A stretch of 64,000 bases of DNA from Oribacterium sp. P6A1 (GTDB taxonomy: Bacteria > Bacillota > Clostridia > Lachnospirales > Lachnospiraceae), in the NCBI RefSeq assembly GCF_000702885.1, contig NZ_JNKO01000007.1:124001-188000 (forward strand), given 5' to 3'. The notes below the pieces were generated by a model. The model saw nothing but the letters and a program-made list of their open reading frames with translations, did not search any database and was not told the origin of the DNA. The first letter of the stretch is position 1; each line of letters starts with the position of its first letter. This document shows positions 29,928 through 37,785 of this stretch, piece by piece. A program made the translations under genes and the position numbers.

Positions 29928-31382
29928 TCACCCTGTCCTGCGCCGGTCAGATTGATTCTGTTCCTCCAGCTGCTTCTCCATCTCATGTATCAGCCTTTGT
30001 ATATTTCTATGAGCCGATTGTATGGGCAGTACCTGATCTGACAACGGAAGGCTTCCCATAAAATCCGAAAAGATATTGATGATGTTCTGCTCTCTCACCG
30101 CCATGGCCTGTAACTTTTCACTATTTGAGATAGTAAGAACATGTCCCTCAACAATCGTAAAAAACCATTTCTTAATTATGGGCACCTTAGTTTCATCCAA
30201 AATGTAGTACCCCGCACCGAGAGATTTATCAATCTTTTTTAGTATATCGATTCGCTGTTCCAAAGAAAAATGGCACTCGGTCGGAAAAGGAAAATCGAAA
30301 GCGGTACCTTCCTGCGCAAACCTTCGTAATCCATCCATGGACAAATATTCTGTCATCAGCTGTTTCTGTTCCATGAAATTCTGAAGCTTAAAAATACGTG
30401 ATGCATAGGGCTGCAATTCCCGAATACTGTTCATCATATTCTCATCTATCAGCATCAGAAGATTTGCCATGCCTCCATAATTCCAGCAGTTTACTCCGAG
30501 ATAGCCAAAATCCTCCATGGTATCCACTATGATATCCATATCTTCAGTCTGTACTTTTGTTTCATGAGCCTCGGCAAAAACTCTGTCTATCTGTTTTTTG
30601 AACTGCTTCACCAACACCGGATTCTGAATGCGTACCGCCCCGGAACACTGCTTACCGAGTAAAATCACTTCCGAATCGTCCGCAACATAATATGGATACA
30701 ACACTCCGAAATTATCTTCGATCATATTGTCATCATAATAATAATAAAGGTGAGTTCCTCCGATTCCGCATACATTAAATATAAGCATGTTGGTATATTT
30801 TGCCACAATATTGTAAGCGGAAACTCCTGATTTTTTCTTTGGAAACTGGAGCAGCATTCTGATATCAGCATTCCGTATTTCACTTTGGAGGGCCATAGAA
30901 TTTATGCGGGCATAAAATGTCTCCTCCATACGCGGTATAAAAACGTCAAATTTCGGCTCACCTGATGCAAAATGGCGTTCAAAAAAGTTCTCCAGCAAGT
31001 TGATGACATCATGTTTTTGGTCAAAAACCAGTTTGTTATTCTGAAATTCACTGACAGTTGGTCTGATACCGACAGTCGGTCTCACTGAATCCTCATAATC
31101 GGCCACTGTTTCCAGGCACATAATGACCGCTTTTCGATTGAGTGCTGTATCCACCCCCATAGTCTCAAATGCATATAACTCATCCAGTTTCTTGATCTCC
31201 GACTTCGAGAGGGGCAATACTCTTTTTATATCATTGTATTGGACATTTGTCGGGATTCTGGAACCGTTCAAAAACTTATAGAAAGAAGAACGATTTATTC
31301 CTGTGTTCCTGATGATACTGTTTTTTCCTAAACCACTCTCTTCAACAAGACTGGCAAGAAGTGATGAAAAAGGGCTGTTCAT
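29928..31382 (-). CDS. large XRE-like helix-turn-helix regulator of unknown family
   Basis: The 484-residue protein opens with a helix-turn-helix (residues about 8-55: SLVEESGLGKNSIIRNTGINRSSFYKFLNGSR), the layout of XRE-type DNA-binding domains. The remaining 400 residues are predicted soluble, match no domain I recognise, and contain a GTHLYYYYDDN segment and an amphipathic C-terminus (HEMEKQLEEQNQ). It is probably a transcription regulator with a large sensor or effector domain. It has a good promoter at 31437-31465 and its own terminator, and sits between the SGNH-fold pair and the riboswitch-controlled protease, either of which it could regulate. Confidence 0.7.
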   Translation of the reverse strand: MNSPFSSLLASLVEESGLGKNSIIRNTGINRSSFYKFLNGSRIPTNVQYNDIKRVLPLSKSEIKKLDELYAFETMGVDTALNRKAVIMCLETVADYEDSVRPTVGIRPTVSEFQNNKLVFDQKHDVINLLENFFERHFASGEPKFDVFIPRMEETFYARINSMALQSEIRNADIRMLLQFPKKKSGVSAYNIVAKYTNMLIFNVCGIGGTHLYYYYDDNMIEDNFGVLYPYYVADDSEVILLGKQCSGAVRIQNPVLVKQFKKQIDRVFAEAHETKVQTEDMDIIVDTMEDFGYLGVNCWNYGGMANLLMLIDENMMNSIRELQPYASRIFKLQNFMEQKQLMTEYLSMDGLRRFAQEGTAFDFPFPTECHFSLEQRIDILKKIDKSLGAGYYILDETKVPIIKKWFFTIVEGHVLTISNSEKLQAMAVREQNIINIFSDFMGSLPLSDQVLPIQSAHRNIQRLIHEMEKQLEEQNQSDRRRTG

Positions 31383-31697: not shown

Positions 31698-32300
31698 TTA
31701 GATTGAATATGAAAGCATCTGCTGGCAAAGATCCTCAGCCTGCATGAAAACTCTGTACTCCGGGCTAGGCATAGCATGTGCGCCTCCTCTGTAGTTGAAC
31801 TTGATGTAGTCGGAGTACAGTGCTGCAAATGTCTCATCCTCGTTGTAGCAGCGATTGTCATAAGACTTTCTTTCATTGTAAAGCTTTCTGATATCAGCCT
31901 TCATCTGATCTGTAAACATCGGCTGTGTTGTGTGATAGATAAAATGACCGAGCTCATGAACCGGAGCCTTCTGTACTTCATCCCAGGAATTGTTGTTGGA
32001 AGTTGCTTTAAGTGTGATCTGCTTTGAATCAAAAGTATAGATTCCGTTTACATCCTGCTGGCCAACAAGCACTGTATCTGTATAATGGATAGTTCCGCCG
32101 CGCTGCATAAAAAGGACGATAACACTGTTTGGCACTCTTTCGAAATAAGTATTGACAGCAATCTTATAAGATTCAGGCTGCTGATCGTAAACATCGTGAC
32201 CAGATGCGATTAACTGAGTAACGTTAGCAGCAAAAGCTGTAACTGTCATCATAACAACCAGATTGACTACTATAACGATTGTTCTAACAAGGTTCTTCAT
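31698..32300 (-). CDS. secreted HELGH zinc metalloprotease (gluzincin, ATLF/PPEP-like)
   Basis: A 200-residue exported protein: signal peptide MKNLVRTIVIVVNLVVMMTVTAFA, then one compact domain. The zinc motif HELGH (about residues 115-119) is followed some 40 residues later by DETFAALYSDY, fitting the third zinc ligand (Glu) and tyrosine of gluzincins of the anthrax-lethal-factor type. Size, secretion and the EFFAxxY-like motif recall Clostridioides difficile PPEP-1/Zmp1, which cuts Pro-Pro bonds in surface adhesins under a c-di-GMP riboswitch. Sequence identity is not obviously high (PPEP-1 has HETAH), so the Pro-Pro specificity is inference. Its leader carries two GEMM-I aptamers and a terminator. 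Confidence 0.8.
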   Translation of the reverse strand: MKNLVRTIVIVVNLVVMMTVTAFAANVTQLIASGHDVYDQQPESYKIAVNTYFERVPNSVIVLFMQRGGTIHYTDTVLVGQQDVNGIYTFDSKQITLKATSNNNSWDEVQKAPVHELGHFIYHTTQPMFTDQMKADIRKLYNERKSYDNRCYNEDETFAALYSDYIKFNYRGGAHAMPSPEYRVFMQAEDLCQQMLSYSI

Positions 32301-32319
32301 ATTCTCTATCCTTTCAAGT

Positions 32320-32379
32320 GCAACTGGCTGACCTTTCGGTCCCTATAGCTTTGCGCCACCGGATTTCTCCGGGTTTGCT
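32320..32379 (-). promoter_or_regulatory. GEMM-I riboswitch, gene-proximal aptamer (A20 variant)
   Basis: On the minus strand: AGCAAAC, then the CCGGA-GAAA-TCCGG tetraloop hairpin, GCGCAAAGCTATAGGG, a second GAAA-capped stem and GTCAGCCAGTTGC. This is the core of the c-di-GMP-I (GEMM-I) aptamer. Aligned to Vc2, spacing from position 20 to 47 is identical; position 20 is A instead of G, position 43 is G instead of A, and A47 is kept. Only 19 bases separate it from the start codon, and AAAGGAT follows at once, so it probably acts on translation initiation. Confidence 0.88.
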
Positions 32380-32474
32380 ATTTAAATGAATGAATCGAAT
32401 CGGGTTATATACCTACCCGCCTTCGCCAAAAATCTTAATTTCCCCTTCCCTGGATTTCTTTTGGCGAAATAAAA

Positions 32475-32506
32475 AACCGGCATCGGATCTCTGTCCGTTG
32501 CCAGTT
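32475..32506 (-). terminator. intrinsic terminator between the two aptamers
   Basis: On the minus strand AACTGGCA and CGGA pair with UCCG and TGCCGGTT, followed by TTTTTTATTT. Its 5' arm AACTGGC is exactly complementary to GCCAGTT at the 3' end of the distal aptamer, which gives a plausible antiterminator. A further TTCGCCAAAA/TTTTGGCGAA hairpin (32422-32468) follows. Confidence 0.85.
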
Positions 32507-32575
32507 AACCTAGAACCTTCTTTGTATTAGTCTTGATTCGAGGACTAACCTTCGGAGCTCTGCTCCATGAAGATT

Positions 32576-32635
32576 GCAACTGGCTGACCTTTCGGCCCCT
32601 ATAGCTTTGCGTCACCGGATTTCTCCGGCTTTGCC
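32576..32635 (-). promoter_or_regulatory. GEMM-I (c-di-GMP-I) riboswitch, distal aptamer
   Basis: On the minus strand: GGCAAAG, CCGGA-GAAA-TCCGG, TGACGCAAAGCTATAGGGG, a GAAA-capped stem and GTCAGCCAGTTGC. Differs from the proximal aptamer at 4 of about 60 core positions. Positions equal to Vc2 G20, A43 and A47 are all canonical, so c-di-GMP is the expected ligand. The terminator at 32475-32506 is its likely expression platform. Confidence 0.92.
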
Positions 32636-32714
32636 AAATGTGATCTAGGTTGGATCACATTCTAAAGAGAAATGAACTACTTAGTTCTTTATCCTCTTTC
32701 TCTTTACATTTTCT

Positions 32715-32742
32715 ATTCTATCATTTATTTTTTAAATTGCAA
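32715..32742 (-). promoter_or_regulatory. promoter of the protease leader RNA
   Basis: On the minus strand TTGCAA, 16 bases, TAGAAT with an extended TG. The predicted leader is about 400 nt. It begins with an AAAGAGAAA/TTTCTCTTT hairpin (32664-32705) and ATGTGATC/GATCACAT (32638-32660) before the first aptamer. Confidence 0.6.
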
Positions 32743-32755
32743 TAGATAAATTAAA

Positions 32756-32790
32756 ATTCGCAAATTAAAATTGAAATTTAATTTGCGAAT
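32756..32790 (-). terminator. AT-rich 14-bp inverted repeat after the HTH gene
   Basis: ATTCGCAAATTAAA (32756-32769) is perfectly inverted at 32777-32790, about 50 bases past the HTH gene's stop. Probably the 3' end of that transcript; the T-run is weak. Confidence 0.5.
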
Positions 32791-32838
32791 CGACTGATAT
32801 TTTTAAGTATTCAATTTTTCTCTAAGCCTTGTGGGCCC

Positions 32839-34873: not shown

Positions 34874-36220
34874 TCAGATTAGCCGTTTTTTACTGTAAGC
34901 CGCCCCATAACCGATGAGGGCTCCGAGCACATTACTGAACACATCATCCATTTCACAAAGCCCGATACCGGTAACATACTGTACCGTTTCGATCAGAACG
35001 CTTAACGCTAATGCCCATACCCATCCGAACCGATGCTTCGGATCGTACAGTGCCGCACCAAGGGGGACAAACAACCAGATATTATTCAATATGTTCTGCC
35101 GTGTTGCCGGTGATATCAGAAATTCTTTATATGATTTAAAAAGTTCAAATACTGCTCTATGATCTCCTGCCTCCCTAAAGGCTATAGTCATTATGCCTAT
35201 GAAGATAATATAAAAAATAAGGAATACTATCTTAACTTTTCCCCGTACCATGATTGCTGCAATTGTCACCAGGACTCCAAATATCAGAACCAGATAAGGC
35301 CTTGTATTAAGAATGTTATCAATTCGGAGCATCTGTTCTCCAGTTTCATCCAGGTAGACCTCCTGACCATTGACCTTTTCAATCCCATACTGGCCCCGGC
35401 CAACAGTCACGGGACTTCCTTCTTTATCAAAATACAAAGTCCTCGTTCCTTCTTTTTTTTCGACAGCATATCCCCGGGTAGTGTTATCCGGTTTTCCCTC
35501 AGCATCAAGATATGTGGTGACGTTTACCCCATCCACAGTTTCCGTCATCTTCCCATACTGCCCTAATGTAGATGCGACAGGCTGCAAATCTTCATCAAAG
35601 TACATATCAATGGTTCCAGTGTCTGTATACGATCGACGTATCAAGGCATAACCGGATGTGTTACTTACCAGATTACCCTCCTGATCCATGTACTTCAGCT
35701 CACAGACATGATTTGATTCGTCATAGACACGTTGATACTGCCAGTAGCCCTGCTTCCTTTCAACCTGTTTATCACCGATCCAATAGGTGTCAGTGTCTGC
35801 TTTTCCGGCATCTGTGTATGTTCTCCGGATAGTATCGTAACCATCTCTTAAAACAGCCCTACTATCCAGGGCATCAAGGTATATAATCTCTGTATTGAAT
35901 TTACCTTCATAAACCCGGGATATCTGCGCATAGCCGGCCGGAAGAACAGTTAGATTTCCCTTTTCATCAAAGTACTGCTCCAGAACCACATGCCCGTCTT
36001 TTTTCGTTTTTATAGCCGTCGCATAACCTTTGTCTCCAGCAAAAGTAATATGCCCTTCAGAATCAAGGTAATCGATCCGCTCATAATCCTCTGTACTCGT
36101 CTCTTCTTTTGATAATTCCGCGGAATTCACAGATGATTGTTTTATGTTCAATATGAATGTAATAATGATGATAAATAAAACCGGAAGCACAAGGAGTATC
36201 CGGATCAAGATTTTTTTCAT
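34874..36220 (-). CDS. VanZ-family membrane protein with N-terminal tandem repeats
   Basis: About 448 residues. An N-terminal membrane anchor (MKKILIRILLVLPVLFIIIITFIL) is followed by six or so repeats of about 45 residues, each of the form GYA-x-I-x-R-x-Y...YLD-x-EGN (GYAQISRVYEGK, GYALIRRSYTD, GYAVEKKEG), then a four-helix VanZ-like domain (from about 330). Repeats of this kind before VanZ are familiar in Lachnospiraceae; function is unknown. I take the start at 36220 because the decayed copy at 37336-37709 starts at the same residue, although no clear ribosome site precedes it. It lies inside the polysaccharide locus. Confidence 0.8.
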   Translation of the reverse strand: MKKILIRILLVLPVLFIIIITFILNIKQSSVNSAELSKEETSTEDYERIDYLDSEGHITFAGDKGYATAIKTKKDGHVVLEQYFDEKGNLTVLPAGYAQISRVYEGKFNTEIIYLDALDSRAVLRDGYDTIRRTYTDAGKADTDTYWIGDKQVERKQGYWQYQRVYDESNHVCELKYMDQEGNLVSNTSGYALIRRSYTDTGTIDMYFDEDLQPVASTLGQYGKMTETVDGVNVTTYLDAEGKPDNTTRGYAVEKKEGTRTLYFDKEGSPVTVGRGQYGIEKVNGQEVYLDETGEQMLRIDNILNTRPYLVLIFGVLVTIAAIMVRGKVKIVFLIFYIIFIGIMTIAFREAGDHRAVFELFKSYKEFLISPATRQNILNNIWLFVPLGAALYDPKHRFGWVWALALSVLIETVQYVTGIGLCEMDDVFSNVLGALIGYGAAYSKKRLI

Positions 36221-36447
36221 AGTTTTTAATGTCTTTGCAAAGTAGCACAGTGCCATTTTTTCCAGGTTATGGTTCAAAATCAGACTATATGCATTTCCTG
36301 TATGTTCTGTTATTATACTTTCATAACACAGCCGCTTAAGATTCTAAAAGTTCTTTAAAATCCATCTTTATTTCTTTTATTTATGATATATTCATATTAT
36401 ATATACATATCTTGGCTGTTTCTATCCCAACATTTAAGAGGTAATAA

Positions 36448-37293
36448 ATGTCAGAATTAACTATTGAAGAGAAGAAAGCCAAGGTAAAAGACCTTCGCCC
36501 TATTGATGATGTCTTCTTCGAAGTACTTGCCAGAAATCCCGGTGTCATGGAAGAGATCCTGTGCACTATTCTTGAAGATGATAAGCTCATCGTAAAGGAT
36601 GTGATCGTTCAAAGTGATGAACGTAACCTATATGGCAGATCTGTAAGACTTGATGCACTCTGCCTGCTTGGAAACGGAATAAGCTGTAATGTCGAAGTAC
36701 AGCGATCTGATAATGATGATCATTTCAGACGTGTGCGTTTCAATGAATCCAGCATTACAGTCAGAGATTCCCAGTCAGGTACCGATTTTAAAGAAATCCC
36801 GGATGTACATGTTGTGTATATCTCGGAATTTGATATCATCGGAGCAGGTCATACCATATACCATGTAAACAAAGTGATTGCCGAAACAGGACAAATCGTT
36901 GATGATGGAACCGGATATGTCTATGTCAACACAGCCATAGACGATGGGACCGACATCTCAAGTCTCATGTCCTGCTTTACAAAGAAAGACTTTAACAATC
37001 CGAAATTCCCAAAACTCAGTAAAGAAGTCAGTTATCTGAAAACAACAGAAGGAGGCCTTAATTCTATGTGTACAGTTATGAAGTATTATGAAGATATAGC
37101 CGAGCAAAAGGGGCGCTCTGAAGGTCGATCCGAGGGCCTCGCTGAAGGAAAACGCTTATCCTACTTCGAAATGGTTCAAGATGGCGACCTGAATGTAAAA
37201 AAAGCGGCCCAGAAAACAAATCTCACTGAAGAAGAATTCCTGAAGGAAATGGAACTAGCCGGCTTTAAGCTACCAAAGGAGCAAACTGTTTAG
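36448..37293 (+). CDS. Rpn-family PD-(D/E)XK nuclease / transposase-like protein
   Basis: A 281-residue protein matching the Rpn/PDDEXK transposase-like group: DLRPIDDVFFEVLARNPGVMEEILCTILED at the start, a nuclease core around VRLDALCLLGNGISCNVEVQRSD (D and ExQ/ExK-type residues near 75-95), then a Gln/Glu/Gly-rich SEGRSEGLAEGK linker and a C-terminal helical region. The family promotes RecA-independent recombination in E. coli and is multicopy in Lachnospiraceae genomes. It is on the plus strand against the polysaccharide genes and sits exactly between an intact and a decayed copy of the VanZ/repeat gene. AAGAGG precedes the ATG. Confidence 0.85.
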   Translation: MSELTIEEKKAKVKDLRPIDDVFFEVLARNPGVMEEILCTILEDDKLIVKDVIVQSDERNLYGRSVRLDALCLLGNGISCNVEVQRSDNDDHFRRVRFNESSITVRDSQSGTDFKEIPDVHVVYISEFDIIGAGHTIYHVNKVIAETGQIVDDGTGYVYVNTAIDDGTDISSLMSCFTKKDFNNPKFPKLSKEVSYLKTTEGGLNSMCTVMKYYEDIAEQKGRSEGRSEGLAEGKRLSYFEMVQDGDLNVKKAAQKTNLTEEEFLKEMELAGFKLPKEQTV

Positions 37294-37335: not shown

Positions 37336-37709
37336 CTATAAGCCATTCTATCCAGGGCATCAAGATATATTATCTCTGTATTAAATTTTCCTTCATGCAC
37401 CCGGGATATCTGCGCATATCCCGCCGGAAGAACAGTAAGATTTCCCTTTTCATCAAAAAACTGCTTCCAGAACCACATGCCCATCTTTTTTCGTTTTTTT
37501 AGCCGTCTCATAACCCTTGTTCCCGGCAACCATAATATGTCCTTCAGAATCAAGTTAATCAATCCGATCATAATCCTCTGTACTCATCTCTTTTTTTTTG
37601 ATAATTCCGAAGAATTCACAGATGAATTTTTTATATTCATCATGAATGTGATAATTACGATCAGTAAAATCGGAATCACAAGGAGCATCCGGAACAGTAA
37701 TTTTTTCAT
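37336..37709 (-). pseudogene. decayed 5' copy of the VanZ/repeat gene
   Basis: The minus strand from the ATG at 37709 (MKKLLFRMLL-like) repeats the first 110-120 codons of the 34874-36220 gene, including FDEKGNLTVLPAGYAQISRVHEGKFNTEIIYLDALD, but with frameshifts, so no single frame spans it. The homology stops near 37336, just past the Rpn gene. It is a remnant of a duplicated gene; the Rpn gene separates the two copies. Confidence 0.85.
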
Positions 37710-37785
37710 GGTTTATTCCAAATTATAATCTTTAAAGGTTAAGCAGTTAGTCTCCATCTATTTTTACATATTCCCCTTCTTTGAT

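Follow-up and report, generated by a model that had tools for sequence, protein, structure and literature searches.

A mixed G20/A20 doublet of c-di-GMP-I aptamers in Oribacterium: a possible two-stage OFF switch on an apparently grafted leader

Two c-di-GMP-I (GEMM-I) riboswitch aptamers stand in series in front of a putative protease gene of Oribacterium sp. P6A1, and they carry different letters, G in the first and A in the second, at a position that we take to be a ligand contact. Our preferred reading, which we would put at a probability of about 0.45, is that this doublet forms a two-stage cyclic-dinucleotide OFF module, with a sign, ligands and thresholds that we infer, in which G20 and A20 would represent different sensitivities within c-di-GMP signalling. 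What can be made out directly in the letters of the window (the whole stretch of 64,000 nucleotides that was analysed) is the pair of predicted aptamers, the putative terminator between them, the mixed pairing of G with A, and the replacement of a whole block at the 5' end of the gene.

Both aptamers are members of the c-di-GMP-I class, with ligand binding predicted. The Rfam covariance model RF01051 (gathering score 35) places aptamer 1 at 32645-32572 with 52.3 bits (E 2.4e-7) and aptamer 2 at 32389-32316 with 50.7 bits (E 5.8e-7), both on the minus strand, and the only other match above gathering in the whole window is one tRNA. A sequence-only reading made beforehand had proposed two GEMM-I copies, to be checked with Infernal and RF01051, in the leader of a single gene with an HELGH motif. 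The scores bear this out, the gene being the open reading frame at 31698-32300 on the minus strand, with VHELGHF in its translation; the motifs then quoted are all present in each copy, and the near-identity of the 60-nt cores stands as well, at 95% rather than the 93% or so first given. In both aptamers one finds the P2 hairpin of the family with its GNRA loop (CCGGA-GAAA-TCCGG) and the CGCAAA junction (CGCAAAGC), and base pair 12-37 of P2 agrees with the RF01051 consensus in being G-C. Both Rfam alignments are gapped where the P3 consensus has CUAA/UAUG, a part that we take to be the receptor of the P2 GAAA loop, leaving no receptor-like P3 segment; this does not bar membership, because short-P3 matches elsewhere in the family also exceed the cut-off. 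Upstream lies a sigma-70-type promoter-like site, TTGCAA-16-TAGAAT (32715..32742, minus strand), which is a consensus match only and has a similar stretch in related leaders, and if transcription begins at this site, which ends at 32715, the leader would be about 400 nt long. A search of the same genome for c-di-GMP-II aptamers gave no matches, and its controls likewise gave none.

The difference between the two aptamers lies at position 11 of the RF01051 alignment, where aptamer 1 has G (32635) and aptamer 2 has A (32379), G being typical of the family and the family model accepting both letters; the sequence-only reading had not reported this difference. We take this to be G20 of Vc2, a ligand contact, on our own numbering of the Vc2 sequence. 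The equation of Cd1 G11 with Vc2 G20 in PMC9262584 agrees with this mapping (here and below, a PMC number stands for passages of a paper, not for the whole of it). The contact at position 20 is described as G where the ligand is c-di-GMP and as A where it is c-AMP-GMP (PMC9481103), and the position is regarded as a factor in selectivity and not a hard filter (PMC9262584). Of the two window aptamers, only the second has the A that is expected of a cGAMP-sensing GEMM-Ib aptamer.

This mixture is not peculiar to the window. We searched 17 Oribacterium genomes with RF01051, that of the window (G000) included, and 13 of them gave 35 matches in total, which resolve into 15 complete doublets in 12 genomes and five others: a single aptamer in G009, a fused single copy (G004:C34) and three at contig ends (G010:C155, G012:C47 and G012:C66). 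All 15 complete doublets, 11 of them aligned whole, combine one G20 with one A20, and no G/G or A/A doublet occurs among them; the order is G-A in 13 and A-G in two, those of G001 and G002. In these two genomes aptamers 1 and 2 seem, from their P3 features and flanks, to have stayed where they were, the letters having changed and not the modules, and a midpoint-rooted tree of 12 CAP-type proteins groups G001 and G002 with G009 (single G20), beside G008 (G-A). The mixed arrangement is real and well kept. Outside the genus, 18 doublets from 16 genomes could be read at both copies, taken as the best-scoring rows among the matches listed, a choice that may favour G20, and these comprise 13 G/G, four mixed G/A and one C/G. 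Left out of the 18 were L114, whose copies lie 885 nt apart, and two triplets, L141 (G, G, G) and L112 (G277:C26), in which three c-di-GMP-I aptamers with G, A and A at position 20 follow one another with almost no spacing. Setting 12 of 12 Oribacterium genomes against 4 of 18 outside doublets gives a Fisher p of 2.2e-5, to be read with the relatedness of the genomes and the best-scoring origin of the outside sample in mind. The leaders of the genus share ancestry, which we count as a point against our preferred reading. Among the papers listed by literature searches, no title or abstract opening announces G20/A20 doublets or Oribacterium c-di-GMP switches.

Two of the genus leaders deserve mention in their own right. 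The fused copy in G004 (L157) joins the 5' half of an aptamer 1, with its G20, to the 3' half and Shine-Dalgarno of an aptamer 2 in front of a CAP gene, and looks like the product of recombination between the two cores by which a doublet collapsed. In G006 (L016/L028), aptamer 2 reads GTTATACTT in place of the GTTGCACTT of most others, giving an A20/U92 aptamer, the U being presumably the equivalent of Vc2 C92.

What might the second aptamer sense? Enzymes of the Hypr kind, which make cGAMP, have Ser where canonical GGDEF domains have Asp (PMC6456294), a residue that we place at the bracketed position of GHxxG[D]; this mapping is our own and fits the Asn339-Ser348 spacing in that paper. The genome of the window, which is 97.6% complete, has 42 GGDEF matches, and across these aligned rows (one domain appears twice) the position holds 33 D, four N, one each of Q, M, E and T, and one gap. 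The lone T belongs to a domain without the GGDEF motif, so that none of the 42 rows combines Ser or Thr here with an intact motif. In G001, the swapped-order genome (two contigs, 99% complete), there are eight GGDEF matches, and D is found in all seven readable domains. SMODS cyclases gave no match in 16 of the 17 genus genomes, the window's own among them, and were found in G004 only. With Hypr GGDEF and SMODS as the kinds searched for, and the Hypr check covering the window's genome and G001, neither kind emerged in the former or the latter, and two c-di-GMP thresholds are therefore likelier than two ligands. Barring an unrecognised source of cGAMP, both aptamers probably bind c-di-GMP, at different sensitivity. 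Three of the genome's GGDEF domains with an intact motif (L045, L046 and L051) carry Asn for Asp at the base-contacting position. The window's genome and G001, of one genus, have 42 and only eight GGDEF matches respectively, and some 2.5 kb on the downstream side of its doublet of swapped order G001 has a partial, divergent GGDEF match (L155, G001:C1:1317118-1317501).

Between the two aptamers an intrinsic terminator hairpin with a T6 tail is predicted at 32506-32471 (minus strand) from folding and covariation, in agreement with the terminator that the sequence-only reading had placed there: a stretch of 61 nt has a folding energy of -19.8 kcal/mol (z -2.79, with four of 200 shuffles as good), and 4/10 stem pairs show two-sided change across 16 related leaders, one pair of the window being absent in 13 of the 16 rows and another in six. 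A simple terminator scan of the window did not pick this hairpin up. At the 5' end, a hairpin TGTGATC-CAACCTA-GATCACA (32639..32659, minus strand) has two-sided change in six of its seven stem pairs over the same number of leaders, and its loop AACCTA (32651-32646) is complementary to TAGGTT (32512-32507), immediately ahead of the terminator. For this loop-linker pairing the true partners beat shuffled ones (p 0.004, 11 leaders), with two-sided change in only one of six pairs. A candidate antiterminator strand, GCCAGTT (32584-32578) with AATCTTC (32575-32569), overlaps the 3' strand of aptamer 1 (32569..32584, minus strand), its partners being AACTGGC (32506-32500), which is the 5' arm of the terminator, and GAAGGTT (32520-32514); this helix is nearly invariant and shows no covariation (p 0.73, 11 leaders). 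Over the whole leader structure, 11 of 23 pairs show two-sided change, a number reached by none of 500 shuffles, in an alignment of 16 leaders of which some share one genome, and in which G001 and G002 are shifted by one position at the loop-linker helix, several of their pairs being counted as unpaired as a result.

Folding of 12 leaders from the 15 doublets (two of the 12 give equal energies) adds a direction. Before the 3' arm of the terminator exists, all 12 prefer the antiterminator to the folded aptamer, by 3.7-7.0 kcal/mol; once the arm is present, the energy of aptamer plus terminator differs from that of the antiterminator by -0.9 to +4.4 kcal/mol, so that ligand could tip the fold. 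From these energetics ligand would favour termination, an OFF switch. In all 12 leaders folded in silico, the antiterminator excludes the folded aptamer and the terminator is compatible with it, and on this modelling aptamer 1 fits a transcriptional OFF switch of the Clostridioides difficile Cd1 kind.

For aptamer 2 it is position that speaks. A Shine-Dalgarno-like AAGGA (32309..32313, minus strand) lies directly beyond the aptamer match, and in G-A doublets with a readable gene, G008 excepted, the start codon falls 12-16 nt beyond the aptamer-2 block with the Shine-Dalgarno adjoining. On this basis our likeliest guess is a translational switch in which ligand hides the ribosome site. In G001 and G002 the start codon is 68-69 nt past the aptamer block, and unconstrained folding puts the Shine-Dalgarno into a local hairpin. 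One specific candidate, in which an extended P1 helix of aptamer 2 sequesters the Shine-Dalgarno, was convincing by eye but did poorly when tested, and we retain it as no more than our likeliest guess: the pairing shows no covariation and its cognate-partner test gives p 0.46 (8 leaders), and access to the site does not change consistently between aptamer 2 held folded and free in nine leaders (0.27 free and 0.30 held in the window).

Put together, our preferred reading would run as follows. Binding of c-di-GMP would fold aptamer 1, and the folded aptamer would withhold GCCAGTT from its antiterminator pairing with AACTGGC, as folding and the logic of Cd1 suggest, letting the terminator form and transcription stop. 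Transcripts that escape this first stage would meet aptamer 2, whose 3' edge touches the Shine-Dalgarno and where ligand would, as its position leads us to guess, most likely mask the ribosome site. The G20/A20 difference would most likely give the two stages unequal sensitivity to c-di-GMP, and it would be at low c-di-GMP that the secreted product is made. The normal charge of the unit would be a secreted CAP-type protein, the block of promoter, doublet and signal peptide lying at the window on a protease-like gene instead.

It is of course possible to read the same doublet otherwise. Both aptamers might sense c-di-GMP alike in a pseudo-cooperative manner, with G20 versus A20 a near-neutral relic, which we think unlikely and yet worth serious attention. 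Indeed, one survey has more tandems of c-di-GMP-I than of any other class, with 347 doublets (PMC9481103), tandem copies are credited with a more digital response (PMC4759541), and in Cd1 the G11A change is neither strongly stabilising nor strongly destabilising (PMC9262584). In look-alike leaders of other Clostridia, moreover, the second aptamer carries G (L129, L132, L133, L135) or A (L131, L134) at position 20, and given such variation this position may drift. However, drift should also yield G/G or A/A doublets, of which the genus has none in 15, and G001 and G002 differ from the other lineages at both positions and have nevertheless kept the mixture. If instead aptamer 1 read c-di-GMP and aptamer 2 read 3',3'-cGAMP or another cyclic dinucleotide, the two would make a NOR-like gate. 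A mixture that is genus-wide and survives a swap of order suits such a symmetric gate, and A at position 20 marks c-AMP-GMP riboswitches: in the one A case tested, from D. acetoxidans, the aptamer binds c-AMP-GMP markedly better and c-di-GMP perhaps slightly more weakly (PMC9481103), and a G20A GEMM-I is tabulated as a cGAMP sensor (PMC11352751). We nonetheless find this gate distinctly improbable, with no Hypr-type Ser or Thr beside an intact GGDEF motif in the 42 rows of the window's genome or the seven readable domains of G001, with SMODS cyclases missing from all the genus genomes except one, and with c-GAMP riboswitches said to bind c-di-GMP as well (PMC9262584). The two-input switch floated by the sequence-only reading thus draws some support from the G20/A20 pairing, but not enough, given the synthases, for a second ligand to be preferred.

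More doubtful again is the fullest form of that idea, a genus-wide gate whose two near-identical aptamers, differing at one contact base, read c-di-GMP on the one hand and cGAMP or a further cyclic dinucleotide on the other, one at transcription and one at translation, on a mobile block that recruits secreted proteins. A two-ligand gate, if true, would imply an unrecognised cGAMP synthase, for which the three Asn-bearing GGDEF domains could be examples. The slimmest chance goes to stages of opposite or different sign, one of them ON, or an aptamer 2 whose main effect is on RNA stability or processing. Folding leaves the aptamer-2 platform without a consistent change at the Shine-Dalgarno, and Bc1 offers a precedent for incoherent control of transcription and translation (PMC11218506); against this, the aptamer-1 energetics suit OFF in every leader folded, and the order swap of G001 and G002 would invert an asymmetric gate.

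The two-stage OFF module that we prefer has several known relatives, none quite the same. Tandem c-di-GMP switches appear in passages of published surveys as same-ligand pairs that sharpen a response, they are reported as enriched in tandem in a 2025 survey (PMC12452182), and the logic-gate table of PMC9481103 contains no gate of c-di-GMP-I with c-AMP-GMP. Closest in logic is C. difficile Cd1, of the same aptamer family, where the terminator coexists with the bound aptamer and the antiterminator competes, an OFF switch (PMC9262584); here that logic comes from folding only, and Cd1 is a single aptamer whereas the window has a doublet. Mutation of the P2 tetraloop abolishes binding in Cd1 (PMC9262584), and the window aptamers keep their GAAA loop above a short P3 that lacks CUAA/UAUG. 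The Bc3-5 triple tandem of B. thuringiensis also strings c-di-GMP-I aptamers along one 5' UTR, but as three transcription switches said to be jointly more digital (PMC4759541), whereas in the window the last aptamer lies beside the Shine-Dalgarno and position 20 differs. The cGAMP riboswitches, namely Geobacter GEMM-Ib, for which tandem copies occur too (PMC6456294), and cluster 3 of D. acetoxidans (PMC9481103), share A20 with aptamer 2; unlike them, the window pairs its A20 with a G20 aptamer, has G-C at P2 12-37 and belongs to a genome with no Hypr or SMODS match.

The gene itself has a more obscure pedigree. Its 200-aa product (31698..32300, minus strand) has, on inspection of the open reading frame, a signal-peptide-like start and the HExxH motif HELGH, as a PPEP-1-like protease would, and a homologue has HEMGH; we regard it as a putative zinc metalloprotease. 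It has no Pfam match at E<=0.001, and neither Pfam nor NCBIfam gives one above cut-off, its best weak Pfam match being Peptidase_M78 at E 0.018, below the cut-off of that family, and a search of PDB sequences gave no meaningful match, so these three collections relate it to no described protease family. A structure model built on a two-sequence alignment (mean pLDDT 46.9) is too poor for use. What bears out the secreted metalloprotease proposed from sequence is the signal-peptide-like start and HELGH. The comparison drawn with C. difficile zmp1/PPEP-1 is a good one as regards logic, in that class I switches in C. difficile are OFF and ppep-1 (zmp1/CD2830) is a secreted metalloprotease-type gene under such control (PMC11477304); but ppep-1 has one switch and the window two, and the PDB sequence search shows no relation of the protein to a solved protease. 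The protease occurs in two of the 17 genus genomes, the window's own and G006, where the homologue is 77% identical (Oribacterium sp. C9 has a protein identical to the latter), and beyond the window's own genome one of 397 family genomes gave a weak match at 26% identity. Next to it in the window (29928-31382) lies a 484-aa protein without a Pfam match at E<=0.001, and further off a stretch of a VanZ-family gene is repeated at 35855-36225 and 37341-37714 (83-90% identity, about 1.49 kb apart), the two copies enclosing a PD-(D/E)XK transposase-family gene (36448-37293).

A protease is not what these doublets usually precede. By the look of their targets, 13 of the 15 genus doublets stand before a secreted CAP-type protein, one stands before the protease of the window and one runs into a contig end (G012:C80). 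A CAP-type gene also follows the single aptamer of G009 and the fused copy of G004. In this genus, a secreted CAP-type protein is what such leaders usually control; the copy in the window's own genome, the only one scanned against profiles, matches PF00188 with E 2.8e-15. Its leader, on contig C19, is homologous to that of the window, at 83.8% over 591 nt, the part of the window that matches it being about 570 bp (32813 to about 32241), and pieces of the G005 CAP leader match the window unit at about 87%. This unit (32230..32813, minus strand) is clearly delimited on either side, where the flanks match the G006 protease locus at 85-86%, and in G006 and Oribacterium sp. C9 the protease sits beside the same HTH gene without a GEMM-I leader. 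The unit comprises the promoter-like site, the tandem aptamers, the Shine-Dalgarno and the first 20 or so codons; ending at about codon 20, it therefore includes promoter, doublet and signal peptide, all predicted, and in the alignments it replaces the 5' end seen in the G006 relative. It looks as if the unit was grafted onto the protease-like gene from another gene in a local event, a direction that we infer.

Two things follow for the wider biology of these switches. The mixture of G20 and A20 in every complete doublet of the genus, together with the exchange of order in one lineage, amounts to a natural test of threshold tuning against ligand tuning. The replacement of the block, in turn, illustrates clearly how a gene has apparently entered a second-messenger regulon through the exchange, in one piece, of promoter, switch and signal peptide.
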